A stretch of DNA of 64,000 nucleotides. Source: Candidatus Sulfidibacterium hydrothermale. GTDB lineage: Bacteria; Bacteroidota; Bacteroidia; Bacteroidales; F082. Positions 26,478 through 50,023 of this stretch are shown here, piece after piece; the first letter of the stretch is position 1; each line of letters begins with the position of its first letter. Both the position numbers and the translations under genes were made by a program. The stretch is from NCBI RefSeq assembly GCF_020149915.1, contig NZ_CP083760.1, forward strand, positions 2,666,001 through 2,730,000. The letters are read 5' to 3'. The notes below the pieces were generated by a model. It had not been told where the DNA came from, did not search any database, and was given only the letters and a program-made list of their open reading frames with translations.

Positions 26478-26864
26478 ATTGCAGGCGCAAATTTACAAAG
26501 TTTTACCAAAAAGCAAGAGAAAAAACAACTTTGCTAACCGCAGAAGACCGGAAGCCTGTCAACCCGTTAAACAACACACCCTAAATTGCATGCCCACATG
26601 CATAAAAACATCCGAAAAGCACAGCGGCATTTGATTTGTGGCCTTTTGAGAGAATTTATTCTCTGGGGTTTCCTCTTTTACTATTTTTTCTAATTTTACT
26701 GCAACCTAAAAATTAAAAGCCCTTGGGCACAAACCACCCACTATATTGTTTGATTTCCCGCCGAAACTTCTTTACAGTTTCCCTGGCAGATACTCATGCC
26801 GGGAAAATGCTGTTATCCGGAAATGTTTTGGGAGATAAGTATATTCTTTATGGGGATATATGGA
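26478..26864. other. Intergenic stretch between tRNA-Gly and the cassette-like island
   Basis: No gene is supported. A small inverted repeat TGCATG-N4-CATGCA-like word lies near 26588-26603. There is no attC-like palindrome or integrase gene here, so the left edge of the cassette-like island appears to be at 26865. Confidence 0.5.
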
Positions 26865-26895
26865 GTTGTGTGCAAGCTCAAAGAAAGAGAATAAA

Positions 26896-27219
26896 ATGAA
26901 GCATATAGAAAAATTAGCGATAAAATATTTATTGATTGGATTTGGAATAGGAATTTTACGAATCCTTGTTATACATTCAGGATTTTACTTTGTTGATTTC
27001 TTTAATATTACAGACCCATTAAAATTTAATAAAATTACATTTGAAATTCTGAGTTACTCAACAAATATAATTGTTGGGACTTTTATTCTTTTCGACTCAA
27101 TAAAATATGTAAAAAACAAACTGATAATTTCTTTGACGGGATTTCTTATGCCGGTATTTGGAGTTTGTTTCTTGATAATTGAAAAATATTTAATATTGAA
27201 AACCACGGATAATGAATAA
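26896..27219 (+). CDS. Small multi-pass membrane protein, unknown family (cassette A, gene 1)
   Basis: A 107-residue hydrophobic protein starting MKHIEKLAIKYL; an in-frame ATG at 26860 lies before the cassette boundary and is less likely. Three to four membrane spans are visible: LLIGFGIGILRILVI, FEILSYSTNIIVGTFILF and LTGFLMPVFGVCFLII. No family recognised. It overlaps the next gene by eight bases, so the two are translationally coupled and probably form a pair. Codon use is strongly AT-biased compared with the chromosome around it, fitting horizontal acquisition. Confidence 0.7.
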   Translation: MKHIEKLAIKYLLIGFGIGILRILVIHSGFYFVDFFNITDPLKFNKITFEILSYSTNIIVGTFILFDSIKYVKNKLIISLTGFLMPVFGVCFLIIEKYLILKTTDNE

Positions 27220-27574
27220 CACAGCAATTAGAACAATAGGGAAATATGCGTTATTGTTGAGTATTTTTTATGTTCTGGAGTATATTGTAGAATACCTTGT
27301 TGGACAAAAATTGGGAAATTCCATAGCTATTGAAACAAAAAGTTACTTGTTTACCGGCAAATTATTTTTTCCGTATTTATTGAATATCATTACTGCATTC
27401 ATTATTAATTCGGATAAAAACAGATTAGGAATTGAAGGGAAATATTCCGTTTTATTAACAATATTTTATAGGCCAATTGGAATAGTACTTTTTCTAGTAT
27501 ATGTAATTGAGAAAGAAATAAAAAGCCAGCACACAACATCACCTATGCTTCATACCGCAAATAATTGTAAATAA
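27212..27574 (+). CDS. Small membrane protein with internal repeat, unknown family (cassette A, gene 2)
   Basis: A 120-residue hydrophobic protein with about three to four spans. The segments GKYALLLSIFY (near residue 11) and GKYSVLLTIFY (near residue 81) are an internal repeat, so the protein may consist of two related halves. The last 15 or so residues (from SQHTTS onward) are encoded inside the left arm of the attC-like palindrome, a common outcome when a cassette gene runs into its recombination site. No function can be named; an immunity or membrane-stress role is only a guess. Confidence 0.68.
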   Translation: MNNTAIRTIGKYALLLSIFYVLEYIVEYLVGQKLGNSIAIETKSYLFTGKLFFPYLLNIITAFIINSDKNRLGIEGKYSVLLTIFYRPIGIVLFLVYVIEKEIKSQHTTSPMLHTANNCK

Positions 27575-27660
27575 ACGGATTATGTGTTAATAAAACATAT
27601 TGGTAAATAGAAAAATTAAACAATAAAATGCGGCACGCAGCATAGCCCTGCACGTTGTGG
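27529..27660 (+). repeat. attC-like palindrome 1
   Basis: Outer arms GCACACAAC (27529-27537) and GTTGTGG (27654-27660). Inner arms TATGCTTCATACCGCA (27544-27559) and its imperfect complement TGCGGCACGCAGCATA (27629-27644), then TAATTGT/ACAATAA. The single-stranded fold would be a long hairpin with bulges, as in attC. The centre shares long words with palindrome 2 (ATTGTAAATAAA, AGAAAAAT, AAACAATAAA), as seen among attC sites of one array. Confidence 0.65.
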
Positions 27661-27683
27661 TGCATTAAAGAAAAGAAGATAGT

Positions 27684-29795
27684 ATGGATAATCAATTTGA
27701 AAAATTTTTGACTTATGAAAATTTTGAACTTGCTTTTTTTAGGCTTAAAACAGCTCAAAGAAATTTATATAAGTCATTGTATTATCCTGAATTAAAAATA
27801 TTTGAAAATTTTCTATCTCAAAACATTAAAACTTTAATAGAACAGATAAAAAATAAAACATACACCCCTGAAAAAGCACACAAAATATTTATTCCCAAAA
27901 AAAATAATCTTGTTCGTCCGTTATCAATTTTAACATTTAAAGACTTATTAGTTTTTCAAGCATTAACTAATATTATTGCGGATATTGCTTATGATAAAAT
28001 TTCTACCAAATATGGCATTACAATTTTTGGCAATATTATAAATACTTCAACAACCGATAAAAAAAGTAGAAAGTTCTTCTTTAAATCTTGGAAAAAAACT
28101 GGAAAAACTTTGCAGAAAAATCCAAAAAATATTATTCAGAAGGTTATAAATTTTTATCCGAATTTGATATTGCATCGTTTTTTGATACAATCGACCATAA
28201 TATTTTATCACAAATATTAGAGAATAAATACAATATTGAAAAAGATGTGTTAAACATTTTAACTGAATGTTTAGAAAAATGGACAATTGATTTTAATCAT
28301 CATACTTTTAAAGCTAAACACGGTATTCCACAAGGCCCTCTTGCTTCCCCTTTTTTAGCCGATTTGTATTTATCATACTTAGATGATGAAATAACAAATA
28401 AGAAAAGCCTTGATATTAAATATTTAAGATATGTTGATGATATTAGAATTTTCAGCAAAGATGCTAAGACTTCTCAAAAAGCAGTTGCAGCATTGGATTT
28501 ATTGTCAAGAGATCTTGGATTAATTCCACAAGGAGCAAAAATATTTTTTAAAGAAATCACCAATATAGACAAAGAACTTAAAATTCAGAATAATAAATTT
28601 TCTAAAATTACAAAAGAATATAAAAAAGGAGAAAAGAAATTAAAGGCAAAAACTCATAGACAATTAAAAAAACGATTTGTAGATTGCTTTGAAAAAGATG
28701 ATAGTAAACGAAAAGAAGAATATTTAGATAAAACAATTATTAGTTTCTCATTATTCAAGCTAAATAAAGATGATGAAATAAAAGAACTAATAATAAATAA
28801 TTATGACAAAATATTAACTCACTTTGAAGGGATATTATTTTATTTATCTAAGTTTTATGTAGAAAACAACGGAGAAATAGAAGTTTCTGTTAAAGAGTTT
28901 TTAAATAAGGTTTTTGAATGACGATGACATTTTATTTCATCATTTGAATGCTTTAATTTTAAAATATTTTCCTGAATTACCATTTAATGAGAAAGTTTTT
29001 GAAAAATATATTACAAATAAAAATAGAGATTGGTTAGTTCGTTATTATATGGTTGATTGGCTCTATAAGAATGAAAAAACAGAACTTTTTGAACTACTTT
29101 TTATTAGAAATAACGAAAATCCGTTTATTTTAAGAAAAATTAATGATTACAAGTTTATTCTATCAAAAGATGATACTTTTAAAACGCTTTTTACGGAAAA
29201 ACTTCTTAGAGCAGATTATGATTTAACAGCATTACAAGGACTTTATCTTTCGTTTAGAAATTTAAATTTATTTTTTAGATTAAAAGATAATTCAAATTAC
29301 AATTCATATGTAAGAGCAATTTTAGGTGGAAAAATCGATGATTTTATCCTTAAAACTCTAAAAAAAGAGTATGGAATTTCAAATCCTGATACTTTTTTTA
29401 ATAGAAACATATGGGATAAAGATGATGAATATTCTGAACTTGTTGAAGCATTTTATGCTTATGAAAGTTTTAGAAAAACTCAACCTTCAATCGCCGTTTT
29501 GAACCTGAACAACTTCAACAATCTTTGTTTTAATAAAATATGCAGTAGATTAAACATTAAACAGAATTCCAAAGAATATGGTGTTAATTTAGATGCAAAT
29601 ATAATTCAAGATATATTTCCAAAAGCTAATCGTTATTGGGCAGAAATAAATACTAAAAGAAACCAAAAATCAGAAGCTCATCCATATGATAAATATGGTA
29701 AGATTAGAATTAAAATAACTCAAAATGAATTGAATGAATTACATAAAAAAGAAATTGAAACATTGGATGAAATATGTAAATATAGGAATTATTAA
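27684..29795 (+). pseudogene. AbiA-like reverse transcriptase with C-terminal HEPN motif, split by two apparent frameshifts
   Basis: Three consecutive frames (27684-28091, about 28092-28915, about 28914-29795) make one protein of about 703 residues if one A is added to the A7 run at 28092-28098 and one T is removed from the T5 run at 28911-28915. Reverse transcriptase motifs: RPLSILTFKDLLVFQAL, EFDIASFFDTIDH (first catalytic Asp), GIPQGPLASPFLADLYL, and YLRYVDDIRIF (the YxDD box). The C-terminal part has no ATG start of its own and carries RNQKSEAH near its residue 249, an R-N-x5-H pattern of HEPN ribonucleases. RT-HEPN fusions are known from abortive-infection proteins such as AbiA. Whether the indels are real, assembly errors, or phase variation is open. 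The middle and last frames begin at TTG only. Confidence 0.7.
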
Positions 29796-29801
29796 TAACG
29801 A

Positions 29802-29922
29802 CACCACAACACCGGTTATACCTCATGGCGCAAATTATTGTAAATAAATTGATTAAACTTCGGTTAAACATGTTGATAAACAGAAAAATCAAACAATAAA
29901 TTGCGCCACGTAGCATATCACG
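29802..29922 (+). repeat. attC-like palindrome 2
   Basis: Outer arm CACCACAAC (29802-29810); inner arms CATGGCGCAAATTATTGT (29824-29841) and ACAATAAATTGCGCCACG (29893-29910). The sequence is related to palindrome 1 through most of its length. The right boundary is CACG at 29919-29922, followed by TCAGC instead of TTGTG, so this is the right end of the array and the downstream core half-site is not conserved. Confidence 0.6.
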
Positions 29923-30198
29923 TCAGCAAGCTTAACAACAAAAATAAATTTGCTACAAGAAAATATTAAATAAAAACTAACACACAATAGACACATTCAC
30001 CATTTGCACAAGCCAATAAAAATGAAAAAAAGGCAGCTTTTACTGCCGCCACCATAATCGTCATACTATTTTCACTTCTTAACTTATCATCAAACAAAAA
30101 GCCGCGCCGGTTTCATAGTTATCATACATTTTTTCCTAACTTTACGGCAATAAAAACAGAAAACCCGTGACCCATCACCACAATTAACACTTATTCCA
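29923..30198. other. Intergenic stretch after the cassette-like island
   Basis: No gene seen. AT-rich sequence returns to normal composition near 30,040. A weak promoter-like TAACTTTA lies near 30137, upstream of the NfeD gene. Confidence 0.45.
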
Positions 30199-41130: not shown

Positions 41131-41800
41131 CTTTTTTGTGATTTGATTTTTTGTTTTTTGGGATTTCTAACTTGGTTATTAGCCATTGGTGATTAGTTGA
41201 TTTTTAGCGATTTAACAGCGTTTTAATGTCATCCTGAACGGAGTGAAGCGAAGTGAAGGATCTAAAAATAATCACAGCTGTTAAAATAGATTCTTCGCTA
41301 CGCTCAGAAGGACAAAAGAAGTTGATTTCTGGAATTTGAGATTTTTTTGTGATTTGATTTTTTGCTTTTTGGGGTTTCTAATTTTGGTCATTAGCCATTG
41401 GTGATTGGTTGATTTTCATCGATTTAACAGCGTTTTAATGTCATCCTGAACGGAGCGAAGCGCAGTGAAGGATCTAAAAATAATCATAGCTGTTAAAATA
41501 GATTCTTCGCTACGCTCAGAAGGACAAACCAGTTGGTTTTTGGAATTTGAGATTTTTTTGTGATTTGATTTTTTGTTTTTTGGGATTTCTAACTTGGTCA
41601 TTAGTCATTGGTTATTGGTTGTTTTTAGCGATTTAACAGCGTTTTAATGTCATCCTGAACGGAGCGCAGCGCAGTGAAGGATCTAAAAATAATCACAGCT
41701 GTTAAAATAGATTCTTCGCTACGCTCAGAAGGACAAAACAGTTGGTTTTTGGAATTTGAGATTTTTTTGTGATTTGTTTTTTGTTTTTTGGAACTTCGTT
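41131..41800. repeat. Tandem repeat tract, three units of about 210 bp
   Basis: Three near-identical units; their palindromic cores lie at 41228-41313, 41440-41525 and 41649-41734. Each core runs from CATCCTGAACGGAG to CTACGCTCAGAAGGAC and is a long imperfect inverted repeat. The antisense frame gives the well-known spurious peptide PSERSEES. A further copy lies at 61685-61810 and a degenerate one near 61165-61275. Confidence 0.85.
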
Positions 41801-42081
41801 TGCCATTTGCTTTTTTGTTATTTGTGATTTCCCACTTTAGGCACTTGAAGTACTTAAAATGTGAAGGACATCTCTTTTCAGGTCGGACAGGACTTGAAAA
41901 GTGGAGACATCGATACAAACGAAACCGGGAAATTCATTGACCGCCCATTCCCCCGGTCGTACGGTTACCGAATTTCTCCTTTGTAATTTCGCTCCATCCT
42001 TTCGATGCACACCGTCAAACATGGATATCATCAAATTTTTGCTTTTTCTCCTGACGAAATGGCAGTACTCCGTTTTTTTGT
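41801..42081. other. Gene-free stretch with a duplicated coding-like fragment
   Basis: Contains a block (41830-41935) duplicated at 60868-60985. In one frame both copies encode SFQVGQDLKSGDI followed by an ETGK box, with mainly third-position differences. No complete gene is present; it may be a relic of a coding element. Confidence 0.5.
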
Positions 42082-42089
42082 TACTTTTG
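42082..42089 (+). promoter_or_regulatory. -7 box of pheT
   Basis: TACTTTTG, exact TAnnTTTG, 136 bases before the pheT ATG, leaving a long untranslated leader. Confidence 0.5.
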
Positions 42090-42152
42090 TAAACGGTTTT
42101 TGAGCCGCTGTAACAAGCGACTCATTTTGTTGATTGGCAGTTCTTTAGGCAG

Positions 42153-42188
42153 TACAACACCTTTCAAAAGAATAAAATTGGTGTTGTA
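42153..42188 (+). promoter_or_regulatory. Inverted repeat in the pheT leader
   Basis: TACAACACC (42153-42161) and GGTGTTGTA (42180-42188) form a perfect 9-bp stem with an 18-base loop in the untranslated leader. No T-run follows, so it is not an ordinary terminator; it could be an operator or an RNA switch element. Confidence 0.45.
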
Positions 42189-42224
42189 AAGATCCATAAG
42201 AACGGTATTTAAAATTATAAACAC

Positions 42225-44681
42225 ATGAAGTTATCCTATAACTGGTTAAAAGAATACATTGACTTAGATGTTGATCCGCAGGAATTATCGGCCATCCTTA
42301 CCGATATTGGCCTGGAAGTAGAAGGTTTTGAAGAAGTTCAGTCGGTAAAAGGCGGATTGCAAGGGGTTGTGATTGGCGAAGTGCTTACCTGCGAAAAACA
42401 TCCTAATGCAGATAAATTGAGCATTACCACCGTAGATGTGGGCGGGAAAATTTTACCCATTGTTTGTGGCGCTCCCAATGTGGCTAAAGGACAAAAAGTT
42501 CCGGTGGCTACAGTGGGAACCGTTTTGTACGATGGAGATAAACCGGTACAAATAAAAAAATCGAAAATACGCGGTGAAGTTTCCGAAGGAATGATCTGCG
42601 CCGAAGACGAATTGGGATTGGGAAGCTCGCACGAAGGAATTATGGTACTTGATCCGGAAGCCCGCCCCGGAACACCGGCTGCAGATTATTTTGACATTCA
42701 AACCGATTATGTGTACGAAATCGGGCTTACCCCCAACCGGGGCGATGCGGCTTCGCATATTGGCTCAGCCCGCGACCTGGTAGCCGGATTAAACCGCTAT
42801 TTCAACACCCGGAAATATCATTTAAACCTTCCGGACGTATCTGGTTTTAAAGTAGACAACCACGATCTGGATATCGAAGTGGAAGTTAAAGATACAGATG
42901 CTTGTCCGCGGTATTCCGGCATCACGGTAAAAGATATCACGGTAAAAGAATCACCCGAATGGCTGAAACAACGGCTGGAAAGCATTGGCGTGCGTCCCAT
43001 CAACAATGTGGTGGACATTACGAACTTTGTCTTACATGAAACCGGCCATCCGCTTCATGCTTTTGATGCAGCCAAAATCAAAGGGAACAAAGTGGTAGTC
43101 CAAAAAATGCCGGATCAAACGCCTTTTGTTACACTCGATGAGGTAGAGCGGAAATTGCATGTGGAAGATCTGATGATCTGTAACGAAGAAGAAGGCATGT
43201 GTATTGCCGGTGTTTTTGGCGGAGCAGAATCGGGCGTTACGGAAAAAACCACGGCCGTTTTTCTTGAAAGTGCTTATTTCGATCCCAAACACATTCGTAA
43301 AACTTCCAAACGACATATCCTGCAAACCGATGCCAGTTTCCGGTTTGAACGGGGAGCCGATCCCAACATCACGCTGTTTGCCTTAAAACGGGCAGCCTTA
43401 CTGGTAAAAGCACTGGCCGGCGGAACCATCTCATCCGAAATAAAGGATGTTTATCCGCATCCGGTGGAAAAATGGACCATTGATATTTCATATGCCCACG
43501 TTGACCGGCTTATCGGAAACCCCATCGACAGAGATATCATCAAAGAAATCGTACAGGATCTGGAGATGGAAATCATCGAAGAAACAAACGAAGGCTTAAA
43601 ACTGCGTATTCCTACTTTTAAAGTGGATGTATTACGCGAAGTAGATGTTATTGAAGAGATCCTTCGAATTTACGGCTACAATAATGTGAAGTTTGAAGAC
43701 AAAATACACTCTTCCGTGAGCCTGCGACCCAAACCCGATCTGGAAAAATTACAAAACGAGATTTCTGATTATCTGGTAGGACAGGGTTTCCATGAGATGA
43801 TGAACAACTCGTTAACCCGGTCGGATTACATTACCCAGAGCGGGACATTCAACGAAAAAAATAATGTTACCCTGCTGAATCCGTTGAGCAAAGAACTGGA
43901 TATTTTACGTCAGACCCTGCTGTTCGGCGGACTGGAAGTAACGGCTTATAACCAAAACCGCAAAAAAAATGATCTAAAGCTTTTTGAGTTTGGAAAAATC
44001 TATCTCAAAAAAGACAATTACGATAAAAAACGCGGGGTAAAAAATTATTACGAAGAAAAACACCTGATCCTTTTGGCTACCGGACGCCTGCAGGAAGAAA
44101 ACTGGAATGCAGGCCACGAAAAAGCTGATTTTTTCTACGTAAAAGGAATAGCGGACAGCCTGTTAAAAAAACTGGGTATCGACGAGAAGAAAACAGAAAT
44201 CAACGATACAACCAATTCCAATTTTCAATACGGTCTTGATTTCACCTACGGGGGCAAATTACTGGCCACAGTTGGTGCTGTTCATCCAAAAATTCTCCGG
44301 ATGACAGGAGTGAAAAATGAAGTTTTTGCTGCCGACCTGAATTGGGATCTGATTACCCAGCTGGTACCGCGCGAGGACATTCAGTATGTTCCTGTTCCAA
44401 AATTCCCGGCGGTACGCCGCGATCTGGCGTTGGTGATCGATAAAAACATCCGCTTTGCGGAAATGAAAAAACTGGCTTTCCGCACCGAAAGAAAGCTGTT
44501 GAAATCGGTAGGAATATTTGACATCTATGAAGGCGATAAAATTCCGGAAGGGAAAAAATCATATGCGCTTTCGTTTATCTTACAAGATGAAAACAAAACT
44601 CTTACCGACAAAGTCATTGACAAAACCATGCGCCGGATTCAACAGGCTTTTGAAAGAGAACTCCATGCTACATTACGATAA
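42225..44681 (+). CDS. pheT: Phenylalanyl-tRNA synthetase beta subunit
   Basis: An 818-residue PheT. N-terminal MKLSYNWLKEYID, an EMAP-type tRNA-binding domain (about 40-150, with CEKHPNADKLSI), the B3/B4 editing region (LTPNRGDAASHIGSARDL), B5 domain, the catalytic-like core, and a C-terminal ferredoxin-fold anticodon-binding domain (FPAVRRDLALVIDKNIRF ... LTDKVIDKTMRRI). The alpha subunit gene pheS is not adjacent, which is normal in Bacteroidota. It is followed 26 bases later by a sigma-54 activator. Confidence 0.97.
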   Translation: MKLSYNWLKEYIDLDVDPQELSAILTDIGLEVEGFEEVQSVKGGLQGVVIGEVLTCEKHPNADKLSITTVDVGGKILPIVCGAPNVAKGQKVPVATVGTVLYDGDKPVQIKKSKIRGEVSEGMICAEDELGLGSSHEGIMVLDPEARPGTPAADYFDIQTDYVYEIGLTPNRGDAASHIGSARDLVAGLNRYFNTRKYHLNLPDVSGFKVDNHDLDIEVEVKDTDACPRYSGITVKDITVKESPEWLKQRLESIGVRPINNVVDITNFVLHETGHPLHAFDAAKIKGNKVVVQKMPDQTPFVTLDEVERKLHVEDLMICNEEEGMCIAGVFGGAESGVTEKTTAVFLESAYFDPKHIRKTSKRHILQTDASFRFERGADPNITLFALKRAALLVKALAGGTISSEIKDVYPHPVEKWTIDISYAHVDRLIGNPIDRDIIKEIVQDLEMEIIEETNEGLKLRIPTFKVDVLREVDVIEEILRIYGYNNVKFEDKIHSSVSLRPKPDLEKLQNEISDYLVGQGFHEMMNNSLTRSDYITQSGTFNEKNNVTLLNPLSKELDILRQTLLFGGLEVTAYNQNRKKNDLKLFEFGKIYLKKDNYDKKRGVKNYYEEKHLILLATGRLQEENWNAGHEKADFFYVKGIADSLLKKLGIDEKKTEINDTTNSNFQYGLDFTYGGKLLATVGAVHPKILRMTGVKNEVFAADLNWDLITQLVPREDIQYVPVPKFPAVRRDLALVIDKNIRFAEMKKLAFRTERKLLKSVGIFDIYEGDKIPEGKKSYALSFILQDENKTLTDKVIDKTMRRIQQAFERELHATLR

Positions 44682-44707
44682 TTGAACACACGATAAAAAA
44701 ACCGGAT

Positions 44708-45943
44708 ATGGACATCCAAAGTATTAAACAACGATTTGGCATTATTGGAAACTCTCCCTTGCTCAACCGTGCCATCGACATTGCCATGCAGGTGGCATCA
44801 ACCGATCTTACCGTACTCATCACCGGTGAGAGCGGAACAGGAAAGGAAGTTTTTCCTCAGATTATTCATCATTTGAGTCCCCGCAAACACGGGAACTACA
44901 TTGCCGTAAACTGCGGTGCCATTCCGGAAGGAACCATTGATTCGGAACTTTTTGGCCACGAAAAAGGATCATTTACCGGGGCCCACGAAGCCCGGAAAGG
45001 CTACTTTGAAGTTGCCAACGGGGGAACCATTTTTCTGGATGAAGTAGCCGAACTGCCGCTTTCCACACAGGTGCGCTTACTGCGTGTGCTGGAAGTTGGT
45101 GAATTTATGAAAGTAGGCTCTTCTAAAGTGATTAAAACCGATGTTCGTGTGGTGGCTGCCACCAATGTGAATATTCCGGAAGCCATCGAGAAAGGAAAAT
45201 TCAGACAGGATCTGTTTTACCGGTTAAATACGGTTCCTATTTACATTCCGCCGTTACGCGAGCGCAAAGAAGACATCCATTTGCTTTTCCGGAAATTTGC
45301 TGCCGACTTTGCTGAGAAATACCACATGCCCCCGCTGCGTCTGACCAGTGATGCTGTTGAAGTTTTAAAAAACTATTATTGGCCCGGAAATGTCCGCCAG
45401 TTGAAAAATATCACCGAACAAATATCGATCATCGAAAAAGACAAAGAAGTAACCGCTGATGTGTTACGGCTTTATCTTCCTGACACTACCAAACCGGCTC
45501 TTCCTGTACTTTACCGGCAACAGGAGGAAGATCATTTTTCGGAAAGGGATTTGCTGTACAAAGTACTTTTCGACATGAAAAAGGACATCACAGAACTGAA
45601 AAAGATTGTGATTGACATCCTTGAAAAAAACCCGGACGACAGCACGCTGGAGAAGACCAAAGCGCTGCTGGTAAAACACGTATCGGATGCCGACGCCCTG
45701 GACCTTATGCATACAAAAGAGGATGAGATAAAAATCGTTCATCCGAAAGAAACCGTTCCGGAAGAAGAGAAATTCCATTCTCCTGAAATTATTGAAGAGT
45801 CTTTGTCGTTGCAGGATAAAGAAAAAGAAATGATCCGGAAAGCCCTGGAAAAACATAATGGTAAACGGAAAGATGCAGCCCGCGAACTGGGAATTTCCGA
45901 ACGCACACTCTACCGGAAGATCAAGGAATATCAGATTCGCTGA
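44708..45943 (+). CDS. Sigma-54-dependent transcriptional activator without receiver domain
   Basis: A 411-residue AAA+ enhancer-binding protein. Walker A GESGTGKE near residue 40; the sigma-54 contact loop reads GSFTGA rather than the usual GAFTGA; Walker B GGTIFLDEVAELP; sensor region RVVAATNVNIP and RLNTVPIYIPPLRER. A linker with helical charged sequence (about 270-360) leads to a Fis-type helix-turn-helix (GKRKDAARELGISERTLYRKIKEY). There is no receiver or GAF domain at the N-terminus, so control must come through expression or a partner. It is likely co-transcribed with pheT; target genes are unknown. Confidence 0.92.
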   Translation: MDIQSIKQRFGIIGNSPLLNRAIDIAMQVASTDLTVLITGESGTGKEVFPQIIHHLSPRKHGNYIAVNCGAIPEGTIDSELFGHEKGSFTGAHEARKGYFEVANGGTIFLDEVAELPLSTQVRLLRVLEVGEFMKVGSSKVIKTDVRVVAATNVNIPEAIEKGKFRQDLFYRLNTVPIYIPPLRERKEDIHLLFRKFAADFAEKYHMPPLRLTSDAVEVLKNYYWPGNVRQLKNITEQISIIEKDKEVTADVLRLYLPDTTKPALPVLYRQQEEDHFSERDLLYKVLFDMKKDITELKKIVIDILEKNPDDSTLEKTKALLVKHVSDADALDLMHTKEDEIKIVHPKETVPEEEKFHSPEIIEESLSLQDKEKEMIRKALEKHNGKRKDAARELGISERTLYRKIKEYQIR

Positions 45944-46058
45944 TGGAAGTGAGGATGGGGGATGTTTGATGTGAGGATGTTTGTGTAGATGCCTGAATAT
46001 GGTTGACCGTTTTTACTTACTTATTTTCATTATTTACGTTGTTCATTCATGAGTGATC

Positions 46059-46889
46059 TTAGAGACTGAAGGATTGTTGTCCATTACAAAGATAACTTTT
46101 TTCAAATTCATTGGGGCTTTTTCGTTGTAACTCTATATGAGGCTTTTCCTGGTTGTAAAGTAACACGGTTCGGTCAACCTCTTTTTGAAGTTCTTCAAAA
46201 CTGTTTATCTGACGATGGTTCAGGTAATTGTTTTTTATAACCCCGTTTAGTCTTTCTACTTTCCCGTTCTCCCACGGGTATTCGCACATGCTGTTTTTAA
46301 AGCCTTCTTTTTGAGTCAGCTTTAAAAAAGCCTTGTCGTAATATTGACCCCCTCCGTCTGAGTGAAATACAATACCGGTTGTCATTGTGTTTTCCTTCAT
46401 CCGAAGTTTAATAGCCTTCTGTAAAGCCGGTAATGTAGTCTGTTCTGTAGTCAGCCTTTTTGAAACAGAATGACCTAAAATCCGTCTGGAATAGGAATCT
46501 TCAATAAAAGTGATGTAATAGAATCTGCTGTTTATTTCATAGTAGGTAATATCACTTTGCCATGCCTGATTAATTCCGGTTAAAGTCATGCTTTTTAATA
46601 AATTATCAAACCGGACAACGCCTGTGCTATCGGTGGTTCTTCGCCAGTTTTTTACCTTTGCTACCGTTAACCCTTCTGATTTGCAAAAGGCTTCAAACCG
46701 GTCTCTGCCCATGGTCTGGGGACGTAACTTATAATACATATCCCGTATTCCCATTGTAGGATGATCCTCTCGTATTTGATAAATCATAACCAGTAATTGC
46801 TTTTGCTCTGAGCGTATTCTCAGCTTTTTATCCAGCATCTTATGAAAAGCCTGTTTACTAATCCCTATGCTCTTATACAGACGGTTCAT
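46059..46889 (-). CDS. IS3-family transposase OrfB (DDE integrase domain)
   Basis: A 276-residue transposase. An HTH_21-like start (LVMIYQIREDHPTMGIRDMYYKL) precedes the catalytic core: first Asp in QAWQSDITYYEI, second in VFHSDGGGQYYD, and the glutamate in WENGKVERLNGVIKNNYL, so the DDE triad is intact. The ATG overlaps the OrfA stop as ATGA. The OrfB frame is also open upstream of its ATG back to an A9G slippery site in orfA, allowing an OrfAB fusion by -1 frameshifting. Confidence 0.92.
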   Translation of the reverse strand: MNRLYKSIGISKQAFHKMLDKKLRIRSEQKQLLVMIYQIREDHPTMGIRDMYYKLRPQTMGRDRFEAFCKSEGLTVAKVKNWRRTTDSTGVVRFDNLLKSMTLTGINQAWQSDITYYEINSRFYYITFIEDSYSRRILGHSVSKRLTTEQTTLPALQKAIKLRMKENTMTTGIVFHSDGGGQYYDKAFLKLTQKEGFKNSMCEYPWENGKVERLNGVIKNNYLNHRQINSFEELQKEVDRTVLLYNQEKPHIELQRKSPNEFEKSYLCNGQQSFSL

Positions 46890-47311
46890 GCTGTATCGGT
46901 ATTGTTCTCTGTGGTGCCAGAAATATTCGAGGGTCGGGTAGAAAACTTTTTTTTTATATCTACGCCATAGGTCTCTTCTGCCAGTTCTATCATCTTATCT
47001 TTGAAATCAATCAGGATTTGCTTTTGGCCGATTATCCGTTCAAGTTCTGCTACTTTCTTTTTGAGTTCCAATAGCTGCCTTGTGTCACTATCTGTTTCAA
47101 TAATAAGTTTCTCTTTCTTGTCTTTCATAGTTCCGAATTTGTTTAACCACCGATAAACGTTAGTAGTGGTTACTTCATATTGTTTGCTAATTTCGGAAAC
47201 TTTTGTTTTGCCTGTTTCTATTTCCCTGACTTTTTGAATCTTGAAACTGTCGCTGAAATGACGACGCCTTCGCTCGGCGGTGGTCATTTTAAATTGTCTT
47301 CTTGTTGCCAT
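46886..47311 (-). CDS. IS3-family transposase OrfA (HTH protein)
   Basis: A 141-residue DNA-binding protein from the ATG at 47311 (MATRRQFKMTTAERRRRHFS); a longer TTG start would lie inside the terminal repeat. It has the helix-turn-helix VSEISKQYEVTTTNVYRWLNKFG and a leucine-zipper-like coiled coil (LLELKKKVAELERIIGQKQILIDF). The slippery run A9G (46955-46946 region, minus strand) lies in the codons ATA AAA AAA AAG near the 3' end, in the phase for -1 slippage into OrfB. Confidence 0.9.
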   Translation of the reverse strand: MATRRQFKMTTAERRRRHFSDSFKIQKVREIETGKTKVSEISKQYEVTTTNVYRWLNKFGTMKDKKEKLIIETDSDTRQLLELKKKVAELERIIGQKQILIDFKDKMIELAEETYGVDIKKKFSTRPSNISGTTENNTDTA

Positions 47312-47466
47312 TTTTAACTGTTTTTTAAAGTGAATTCTTATGTTAAAAGTGGTCAACCTATTTCAGGCATTGACATTGATGTGAGGATGTTAGATGTAGA
47401 ATGTGCGATTTTTAATTTTTAACAATTAGCATCCTGATTATTAGTTAATTCGGAAAGAAAACACAC

Positions 47467-48492
47467 TTACGGGTTCCTGTAAAAAAGCTTTCCGGTAACA
47501 ATAAAAGAAGCAAAAACAAAAATTCCGAACACCAGGCTGCTCAAAGCCAGCTGCATTCCTCCGGAAATAATATGTCCGCTGGTACAACCGCCTGCCATAC
47601 GGGCACCAAACACCAAAATAAAACCACCAACAAAAGCCCAGAAGATACGTTTTCCGGCCGAAGGCCCCTGGGTGTCAATCCATCGTTGATGAACCCAACG
47701 GAATTTAAAATCTTTTCGCAACAAAGCAAAAACCAGTCCGGCCAACAGCGCTCCCGAAAGGAAAATCAATTCCCAATGTCCGGGGGTAGAAATCTTTGAG
47801 AAATATCCATTCTGCGTGGCTCCTGCCAGCCGATCGGCCACATACGGATAAGAAGTTGAAGCTCCTATGGGTCGGTTGGTAGTCGCTTTTAAGAAAACAA
47901 TACTGTTTAAAACAGCCAACCCGATTCCGCTGTACAACCAGCGATAATTCAAACCGGAAAAGCCTTTTTTCTTTTCATATCCGTGCAAAGCAAAAGCGGC
48001 AACAACAAAAACAATTGCCAAAACAAGGAGCAACACAAAAAAGAGTACGCTGTGTTGTCCGGTTAAAGAAAAAAGAGAGAGCTTTCCCCAATTGGGTCCC
48101 AACACCGGATTTAGTTCCGGTTTCAAAACCGTAAACACAAGTCCGCCAAGCAAGCCGCCGACTATCCCGGTCAGTGCATCCAGCGAACCTTCGCCGGTTG
48201 ACACCGCCAAAGTGCCCGGACAATAACCCAAAACGGCCATACCTATACCAAAAACAATTCCGCCAAGCAGCACGCCGCCGGCAATAAAAGGTTTAACGTG
48301 ATACGAGGCCAACCCTAACCAAATTTCCACATTCAGCAGCAATGCCCCTACGCCAATCGTCATCAAAATGGCTTTGGCAATGGTCATATCTTTTAGCATC
48401 GCATTTCCACTGATCACATCAAAACGGTTCAACCGTGCATAAACCAGCAATCCGCCAAACAAAAATCCAAAAAATAAAATAAGTATATTCAT
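47467..48492 (-). CDS. YeeE/YedE-family sulfur transporter-like membrane protein
   Basis: A 341-residue, roughly nine-span inner-membrane protein. Two repeated halves each carry the family's conserved cysteine loop: MAVLGYCPGTLAVSTGEGS in the first and RMAGGCTSGHIISGGMQLA in the second. YeeE/TsuA-type proteins import thiosulfate or related sulfur compounds through such cysteines. No sulfurtransferase or TusA gene is adjacent. An exact -7 box TACCTTTG lies at 48514-48521. Confidence 0.88.
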   Translation of the reverse strand: MNILILFFGFLFGGLLVYARLNRFDVISGNAMLKDMTIAKAILMTIGVGALLLNVEIWLGLASYHVKPFIAGGVLLGGIVFGIGMAVLGYCPGTLAVSTGEGSLDALTGIVGGLLGGLVFTVLKPELNPVLGPNWGKLSLFSLTGQHSVLFFVLLLVLAIVFVVAAFALHGYEKKKGFSGLNYRWLYSGIGLAVLNSIVFLKATTNRPIGASTSYPYVADRLAGATQNGYFSKISTPGHWELIFLSGALLAGLVFALLRKDFKFRWVHQRWIDTQGPSAGKRIFWAFVGGFILVFGARMAGGCTSGHIISGGMQLALSSLVFGIFVFASFIVTGKLFYRNP

Positions 48493-48793
48493 AAGACGAT
48501 ACGTTTAAAAAAACAAAGGTAAATGATTTCACAGCAAACTGTCAAGGCAACCGAAAATTCATCCAAACAGGTTAACTCTCGCTAATTCCTGTTTTCTTGT
48601 TCATTTCTTGTCCCGCCAAGAAAGCCCGCCTGCCCGCGCGTTTCGGGAGGTCCGCCTGAACGGCACAGTCGGGCAGGCCCGCCTGCAGCTGGTATCTATA
48701 TAAAAACGGAATAACACAACAAAGATGTTCTCAGCACATTAAATAAAAATGGCGCCAAAAACACCTCCCGTTAAATTTCCAACGAAAGACGGA
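48493..48793. other. Gene-free stretch with promoter and GC-rich repeat
   Basis: Holds the -7 box for the YeeE gene (48514-48521, minus strand), the reverse-complement copy (48604-48623) of the repeat at 21118-21137, and a CAGTCGGGCAGGC word (48666-48678) that recurs at 57515-57527. No gene supported. Confidence 0.55.
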
Positions 48794-50023
48794 TTACAAA
48801 ACGAATTTTCCGGTTTTCAGGTAACCTTCTCCGGAGAGCCGGTAAATATAAACTCCTTTTTCCGGGATGTTCAGCGAAAGGCGTTCGCCACGTTTTACCT
48901 CCGGAAAACTTAATATTTTTTTCCCGGAAAGATCAAAAATGGAAAGGGCAGCTTTTGTCCCTTCAGGAAGTGCTGCAATCCGGAGAACAGTTCCCCGGGC
49001 TGTTTTCATAAAGACGACAGATCCGTCTTCAGTTTTTTTTTGAGGGTTTATTGCCGTCACCTGCTCTGCCAGCCACAAGGTAGCATTCATAATCAACCGT
49101 TCATGATTTCCGTTGGCATCTTCTATCCAGCCATCGTACAACCGGTCATTAGGATCTCCGGTTCCGTCATCAGCAGGAGAGCTGTCGCCCATTGCGGCCA
49201 CTTTTCCTTTACCGAAAGTTGCAATGGCAAACATCACATCACGGTTTCCAAAATCGGCTCCTGTCCGGTAAATCAACCCCTGTACGCTGCTGTTATCATC
49301 CGGATGCAGAGTCATGGAAGTTCCGGCAAAAAACTGCAATTCGGTTACTTTTCCCATCGGTCCGTTTAAAATCGGACTATCCGGAAGGTCACGCACATTG
49401 GTGGATTTATCATCAAATTTGAGCAAGTCGAAAGAAATACCAAAAGGATCGGCCTGCATGGAATTGTTTTTCATCAGATCATTCCAAATGGAGGGGGAAT
49501 CGATCCCGTCTCCGTTACGGTCAGAAAGATCATGATCAGAAATCATAAAAAGCCCGCCGCCATGATATACAAACTGAAGTATGGCTGTTTTTTCGGCATC
49601 GGTAAAGCGGATATTAGGCTCATCCACCACAAACACAGCGTAATGTGATAAATCCTGCGGATTGGTTCCGTCACCATAAGTAATTTTGCCATTGTAAGGC
49701 AGGGTTTCCACTTCAAAACCTTTTTTCACCAGATCAATCCCCCACGAAGAAAGGGCTCCTGTCCAGTAAGACTCTTTGGTATCTGCTGTCACATCGCTTT
49801 GCGACGGAGTGGGATAACGCTGCGCATTGGCTTCGTAACCCGGACCAGCCACGACTGTTCCATCCTGGTTATACTGTAAATTAAACTGGTCGGCATCAAT
49901 AACCCAATCAGCATTACTGGCTGTTTCAGCTTTGGTAGCATCAAACAAAACTTTCAGCTGGGCATAAGAAGGTGCTGAAAGAAGAACAGACAGAAAAACC
50001 AACAATATAATCTTTACACGCAT
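48794..50023 (-). CDS. Secreted protein with type IX secretion C-terminal sorting domain
   Basis: A 409-residue exported protein, start at the ATG giving the signal peptide MRVKIILLVFLSVLLSAPSYAQ; the -7 box TACCTTTG at 50047-50054 rules out the longer reading. The body resembles a class I glutamine-amidotransferase-like or ABC-type DUF4350 fold (LSHYAVFVVDEPNIRFTDAEKTAILQFVYHGGGLFMISDHD). The last 80 residues (SIFDLSGKKILSF ... KGVYIYRLSG ... GKFVL) form a Por secretion tail (TIGR04183). It is therefore exported across the outer membrane by the type IX system. Its activity is unknown. Confidence 0.82.
   Translation of the reverse strand: MRVKIILLVFLSVLLSAPSYAQLKVLFDATKAETASNADWVIDADQFNLQYNQDGTVVAGPGYEANAQRYPTPSQSDVTADTKESYWTGALSSWGIDLVKKGFEVETLPYNGKITYGDGTNPQDLSHYAVFVVDEPNIRFTDAEKTAILQFVYHGGGLFMISDHDLSDRNGDGIDSPSIWNDLMKNNSMQADPFGISFDLLKFDDKSTNVRDLPDSPILNGPMGKVTELQFFAGTSMTLHPDDNSSVQGLIYRTGADFGNRDVMFAIATFGKGKVAAMGDSSPADDGTGDPNDRLYDGWIEDANGNHERLIMNATLWLAEQVTAINPQKKTEDGSVVFMKTARGTVLRIAALPEGTKAALSIFDLSGKKILSFPEVKRGERLSLNIPEKGVYIYRLSGEGYLKTGKFVL

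Follow-up and report, generated by a model that had tools for sequence, protein, structure and literature searches.

Evidence for a sedentary integron-like cassette system in the Bacteroidota with an I2-less integrase

Integrons are defined and searched for by I2-bearing IntI, and the literature ties IntI to an additional domain (PMC9668308; PMC2426708). Surveys report almost no integrons in the Bacteroidota. The original prediction, made from the sequence of the present locus, had placed a cassette cluster in a phylum where integrons are rarely described, and this is borne out by IntegronFinder 2.0, which names Salinibacter ruber as the one member of the Bacteroidetes with a complete integron and describes the lack of them in large clades as intriguing (PMC9024848). 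Escudero et al. posed a paradox: how could selection have favored I2 ahead of attC, or attC ahead of I2 (PMC4792948)? In the open-access literature (subscription papers and preprints were mostly outside reach) we found no description of a Bacteroidota attC-like system such as the one presented here. It is very probably a sedentary integron-like system of the Bacteroidota, with a recombinase that lacks I2, an attI on the 3′ side of that gene and attC-type hairpins of ~124 nt, and the window would hold a second platform of it that has no integrase.

The window is the whole 64-kb stretch of DNA that was analyzed (C1:2666001-2730000 of the single-contig 3.27-Mb genome, G000). It contains two cassettes (26866-29922), with these features in window coordinates:

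26810..26865, + strand: orphan attI-like site, with CTGTTATCC at 26810-26818 and GGGGATATATGGA at 26852-26864, immediately before the GTT at 26865
26866..27654, + strand: cassette 1, exchange point taken as G/TT, own ends GTTGTGTGC/GCACACAAC
26896..27219, + strand: ORF in cassette 1, 107 aa, ATG at 26896, hydrophobic, no family match
27212..27574, + strand: second ORF in cassette 1, 120 aa, hydrophobic, no family match, extends into the attC-type site
27529..27662, + strand: attC-type site 1, outer arm 27529-27537, model match 27535-27656, right core GTTGTGGTG at 27654-27662
27655..29922, + strand: cassette 2, own ends GTTGTGGTG/CACCACAAC
27684..29795, + strand: UG19-type (DRT candidate) reverse transcriptase, three reading frames with two frameshifts, PADLOC RT_UG19, RVT_1
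29802..29924, + strand: attC-type site 2, outer arm 29802-29810, model match 29808-29924

The original prediction described two units, each with a left end complementary to the outer arm of its own palindrome, and its coordinates were all correct when we rechecked the sequence. GTTGTGTGC (26865-26873) is the exact reverse complement of GCACACAAC (27529-27537), and GTTGTGGTG (27654-27662) is that of CACCACAAC (29802-29810), over 9 nt in both units. The two palindromes (AAC..GTT at 27535-27656 and AAC..GT at 29808-29924) have 77% identity across 113 nt. The right flank of site 2 is chromosomal TCAGCAAGC from 29923, with no GTT core. The first ORF of cassette 1 is 119 aa if begun at 26860, a start that is outside the cassette.

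A covariance model, R1, was built from 27 sites of the main array (described below), with the window sites left out. A custom covariance model had been suggested as a check, and R1 recovered site 1 with 131.6 bits (E 7.8e-27) and site 2 with 96.1 bits (E 8.2e-19); the predicted delimitation by attC-type sites is upheld by a model made solely from the genome's other sites. At E <= 1, R1 found nothing else in the 64-kb window, save these two palindromes again on the opposite strand. A 3-unit chain at 41321-48909 equals the level of reversed-sequence controls and was taken as chance.

The prediction also included a probable defence gene in the cassettes, in agreement with the candidate defence reverse transcriptase (UG19 profile) that cassette 2 encodes. 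The cassette 2 ORFs cover RT_UG19 profile positions 2-147, 129-377 and 376-561 of 562 in PADLOC (E-values 1.2e-48, 1.7e-91 and 1.7e-30, in that order). The fragments together span the full profile (2-561 of 562), and the gene is frameshifted as assembled. Based on sequence similarity, it is a candidate member of the DRT defence family. The frameshifts are near 28095 (an A7 run; 28088-28102) and 28913 (a T5 run; 28907-28920), both at homopolymer runs, so long-read errors are possible; assembly error or decay could be the cause, and the two look alike in the present data. The first frameshift region contains AAAAAAC, a sequence of a kind known to be slippery. In 100 relatives searched at E 1e-60, no UG19 reverse transcriptase was found besides the window's own copy.

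The same genome encodes a far larger array. A DNA search with one palindrome gave more than 25 copies, mostly in one region, and with R1 the count at C1:1944379-2032183 is 77 sites, of which 74 are on the + strand. The further copies that were to be looked for are on the same chromosome, in an array of 88 kb that is nearly all co-oriented. Small attC-type clusters outside it were found with R1 near 975 kb and at C1:2206321-2211771 (L036, L037). Among 52 ordinary cassettes, 50 have forward ORFs only and 40 have exactly one ORF. Certain cassettes are repeated at different array positions with 94-99% identity, and an ORF-less cassette of ~519 nt is present in 20 array copies (C1:1949697-2024518; L031-L035). 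Encoded in the cassettes are, among others, two retron-type reverse transcriptases, proteins of the SIR2, AbiJ, OLD-like, caspase and PRTase-CE types, and a PemK-type toxin.

The first 9-10 nt of the array cassettes are usually the reverse complement of their own attC outer arm. A match of at least 9 contiguous nt (AAC arm against own start) is found in 51 of 74 consecutive cassettes, while random re-pairing gives a mean of 1.06 and a maximum of 6 of 74 in 2000 trials, so chance is excluded genome-wide. The two arms of one site match over at least 9 nt in none of the 74. The ~519-nt cassette accounts for 20 of the 23 misses (6-8 nt match). In this cassette, an A or G at position 4 is mirrored as T or C in the attC arm of the same copy in 20 of 20 copies, as if conversion or repair in the folded form kept the two ends complementary.

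Palindromes that fold and are located 3′ of genes might also be transcription terminators or intergenic RNA elements, unconnected with recombination. We give this reading practically no weight, and it is refuted by the own-end complementarity (51/74 against at most 6/74), which spans hundreds to thousands of bases. Gene-sized units separate successive sites, repeated cassettes occur at different places, and an Rfam scan for the palindromes gave no match, only a tRNA.

Regarding the core, the original prediction had singled out GTTGTG as a departure from GTTRRRY. The departure holds across the array, where GTTR alone is constant at the core (plus a constant A at position 11) and 10 of 74 cassette starts fit GTTRRRY. 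GTTGTG itself is present in both window units but is no signature, given that 9 of the 74 array cassettes have it. The attC-type sites are ~120-124 nt long. After AAC and a few unpaired bases they have an L-type box (CTATGC/GCATAG) and then a second stem (GCCGCA/TGCGGC), in which C-G pairs are swapped for G-C; a long middle part, conserved and rich in A+T, and a closing GTT complete the layout. In some sites the left L box has one additional, unpaired C, which resembles the extrahelical bases of integron attC. As in integrons, the cassettes are in tandem, with imperfect palindromic attC and paired R and L boxes.

Compensatory changes on both sides were found in 11 of 17 inner-stem pairs, using a stem that was drawn up manually from the sequence. 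Shuffles average 4.5 compensatory pairs over all 20 pairs and reached 11 in 0 of 500, and the signal is lost once the partner columns are slid by one to three. In an excised circle the outer stem would be perfect (9-10 bp), whereas the site arms in the array match over only ~4 nt. The inner-stem compensation, with an outer stem that is perfect only in the circle, argues for selection on the folded form. Such a structure should favor insertion over excision.

An intI-like tyrosine recombinase, which had been named as something to search for, adjoins the array, but it is without the domain that defines IntI:

C1:1942151-1943314, co-oriented with the array: tyrosine recombinase, 387 aa, first cassette starts at +44

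The first array cassette begins with GTTATGCCC, which is complementary to the attC arm of that cassette. By position and conserved motif, the site adjoining the integrase is predicted to be an attI that serves as insertion point. The integrase gene is not divergent from the cassettes; it is co-oriented, with the array on its 3′ side. An inverted intI is also known in Treponema.

We rejected the possibility that the array integrase is IntI. It has no I2 insert, and TIGR02249 matches it in two pieces of 109.5 and 100.9 bits, far below the cut-off of 265, with model positions 179-238 skipped. The IntI-specific insert has 21 residues in this enzyme versus 63 in IntI. In an alignment of 122 recombinases, the stretch is 63-64 residues long in true IntI and 25-30 in Xer; nearly all of the Bacteroidota enzymes have 21-22. 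No true IntI was found in the window genome at the TIGR02249 cut-off. By membership rules this is not a canonical integron, since the integrase has no I2 domain and the core departs from GTTRRRY.

A maximum-likelihood tree splits Xer from the rest (100/100) and groups the I2-bearing IntI in one clade (100/100). The 27 array-linked enzymes are on one side of a branch, with the other named groups on the other (75/92; 90% of bootstrap trees). A direct sister relationship of IntI and the new integrases is neither shown nor rejected (p-AU 0.21). A C-terminal SPLD motif is common to IntI and the new enzymes and missing in Xer. The core is nearest to archaeal Xer enzymes in sequence and model (best PDB match 5hxy; 4a8e Z 21.5). 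We place the integrase in the IntI/XerA superclade, without the I2 insert. Other I2-less superclade members occur outside the Bacteroidota, in sphingomonads and Mesorhizobium (L190, L192, L194, L196, L217), Patescibacteria (L195, L198, L199, L215) and archaea (L188, L212). Most of the non-Bacteroidota I2-less recombinases have a C-terminal SPL/SPF motif, and a possible proximal site was seen only in L212.

The system is not confined to one genome. R1 sites are present in 58 of 100 relatives, and integrase relatives in 105 of 296 genomes sampled over the Bacteroidota. Isolates with integrase relatives include Seonamhaeicola aphaedonensis, Algibacter onchidii, Flavobacterium aciduliphilum, Zunongwangia mangrovi, Algoriphagus ornithinivorans and Winogradskyella ursingii. 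A model-free search for own-end chains found runs of 4-8 cassettes 3′ of the integrase in several of these isolates, versus up to 3 units in reversed-sequence controls. Chains in Seonamhaeicola and Flavobacteriaceae S0862 start 63-64 nt past the integrase stop codon. A walk along 7-nt own ends is too noisy alone, so we relied on 9-nt chains and model hits. Rufibacter sp. (L161) appears to have an array with much shorter attC-type sites, ~59 nt.

An attachment-type site is found within 450 nt 3′ of the integrase in 24 of 41 Bacteroidota-type loci (controls: reversed sequence 9/41, 5′ side 2/72, Xer 0/16), and the other 17 of the 41 have no recognizable proximal site. Ten complete single-contig genomes were picked for the high rank of their integrase, without prior sight of the flanks. 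Every one of the 21 R1 hits was 3′ of the integrase and co-oriented, with none in the ten 5′ flanks; nine of the ten genomes had hits, and the tenth (G158) had a chain of six instead. Two true IntI loci have the opposite arrangement, with sites on the 5′ side (L197; L216, a chain of three).

It is very improbable that these arrays are remnants of canonical integrons that lost an I2-bearing IntI and now have an unrelated recombinase as neighbor. A broken true IntI with the I2 insert is in fact encoded in one genome of the same order (L043; G042, C50:52308-53159), its C-terminus truncated or frameshifted ahead of the catalytic tyrosine. Against such a history, the same non-IntI gene heads the array across the phylum, attI overlaps the 3′ end of this non-IntI gene, the ten complete genomes speak otherwise, and 59 of 60 genomes searched have no IntI at the TIGR02249 cut-off. 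The genome with the broken IntI also encodes an integrase without I2 that is accompanied by an attC-type site (L141).

Most array-type integrases have ~85 or more extra N-terminal residues, with several repeats in some, and some phylum members align only from ~residue 90, with the N-terminal part missing. Pfam HARP (PF07443) matches 4 of 23 N-terminal domains at E <= 1 (best 5.8e-7), and a PDB sequence profile search places SMARCAL1 HARP first (E 0.031). The L148 integrase is ~56% identical to that of the window genome; its N-terminal domain scores 18.6 bits against PF07443 (cut-off 25) and has an AlphaFold model with pLDDT 86. Foldseek with this model ranks SMARCAL1 HARP first (E 0.055, probability 0.85). 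VIA-align gives HARP a modest Z of 4.4 across 49 residues, with XPB damage-recognition domains (6.7) and eIF1-type folds (6.9) both above it. Apart from HARP, XPB damage-recognition and eIF1-like folds, no family was prominent in these comparisons of the domain, which is likely HARP-like. HARP is a structure-specific DNA-binding domain. The title of PDB entry 4o66 terms it a substrate recognition domain. The longer integrases L128, L117, L129 and L130 (459-683 aa) have several N-terminal repeats of HARP or DUF5710 type.

The array, the paired structure of its sites, the own ends, the attI position and the phylum-wide linkage to the integrase are direct observations, and for the reaction itself we infer a scheme from integrons. 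The neighboring integrase would catalyze cassette exchange. A cassette would leave as a circle by attC x attC and enter by attI x attC, with exchange presumably at G/TT on the folded strand. The integrase would insert circular cassettes at attI, just downstream of its own gene, and cassettes would be shuffled through the ~124-nt attC-type hairpins; the Bacteroidota system may work like an integron. The HARP-like domain might recognize folded attC in place of I2, which is the weakest part of the scheme.

We tentatively suggest, at slightly less than an even chance, that this is a distinct integron class in which an I2-less integrase reads folded attC via a fused HARP-like domain; it could represent a state before I2 or an independent invention of cassette capture. 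Ordinary Xer-like exchange at double-stranded sites, with the hairpin a by-product of inverted binding sites, is unlikely. It would suit an integrase that has no I2 and a core nearest archaeal Xer, and several attI sites of the system are plain dyads, but the compensatory changes in the inner stem and an outer stem that is perfect solely in the excised circle count against it.

In the clade of the window genome, attI overlaps the 3′ end of the integrase gene and contains CTGTTATCC or a near variant, a TAnnTTTG box in several members, GGATATAA.GA or similar, and GTT. TAnnTTTG is found 14-16 nt before the first GTT in five clade loci (L039, L108, L109, L148, L150), a spacing that would fit a Bacteroidota-type promoter driving the first cassette, as a possible counterpart of the integron cassette promoter Pc. 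A search with the attI motif gave the orphan site as the window's sole match. Ranked among 2390 window GTT on both strands by 60 nt of upstream sequence, the GTT at 26865 is the top match to the genome's attI (36/60, runner-up 27) and to that of L148 (36/60, runner-up 28); it is unremarkable against the attI of two more distant clade members. The left flank of the cassettes is an orphan attI-like site, which would make the locus a two-cassette satellite platform. The likeliest reading is an orphan attI followed by two cassettes received in trans, probably loaded by the integrase ~0.75 Mb away.

For the window, insertion at an attG-type secondary site of the chromosome, and not at a true attI copy, is somewhat unlikely. 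We looked upstream of the orphan site for an integrase gene or remnant and found none, and the right flank has TCAGCAAGC in place of a GTT core; both speak for such a site. The spacing from CTGTTATCC to GGGGATATATGGA argues for an attI copy, being that of the genome's own attI and of L148, as does the first rank of 26865 among the 2390 positions. For the empty site joining 26865 to 29923, which the original prediction had proposed to look for, the neighbors of the NfeD gene were compared in three species of the same genus, and they have no synteny with the window locus.

With large cassette arrays linked to an integrase without I2, the question of I2 and attC origin becomes directly testable. 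The arrays are a reservoir of cassettes, with many defence genes, in a widespread phylum, and they provide biochemistry with a new pair of recombinase and hairpin.

Compared with the HARP domain of SMARCAL1 and the XPB damage-recognition domains, the integrase N-terminal domain matches HARP by Pfam, PDB profile and Foldseek; it differs in its fusion to a recombinase, and the likeness, of modest structural score, is known from sequence and model. XerA and other Xer enzymes share the catalytic core in fold and sequence and also have no I2, whereas the new integrase is outside the housekeeping Xer clade (100/100) and has SPLD, the N-terminal extension and a linked array. The original prediction classed the locus as a CALIN, and locally this stands, with two attC-type sites and their cassettes in the window and no integrase nearby. 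It does not stand for the chromosome: the window has an attI-like site, and the probable integrase, with its own attI, and the main 77-site array are elsewhere. IntI integrons differ in that the Bacteroidota integrase is without I2, outside the IntI clade and with a HARP-like N-terminal extension, and in that the Bacteroidota array is 3′ of its integrase and co-oriented with it. The core is GTTR plus variable bases here versus GTTRRRY in IntI integrons, and the own ends match over 9-10 nt versus 7. With IntI integrons such as the Vibrio cholerae superintegron, the system shares a large array whose cassettes have one orientation and mostly a single ORF each, palindromic attC of ~120 nt, own-end complementarity, a G/TT-type core, an attI beside the integrase, repeated ORF-less cassettes and many defence genes.
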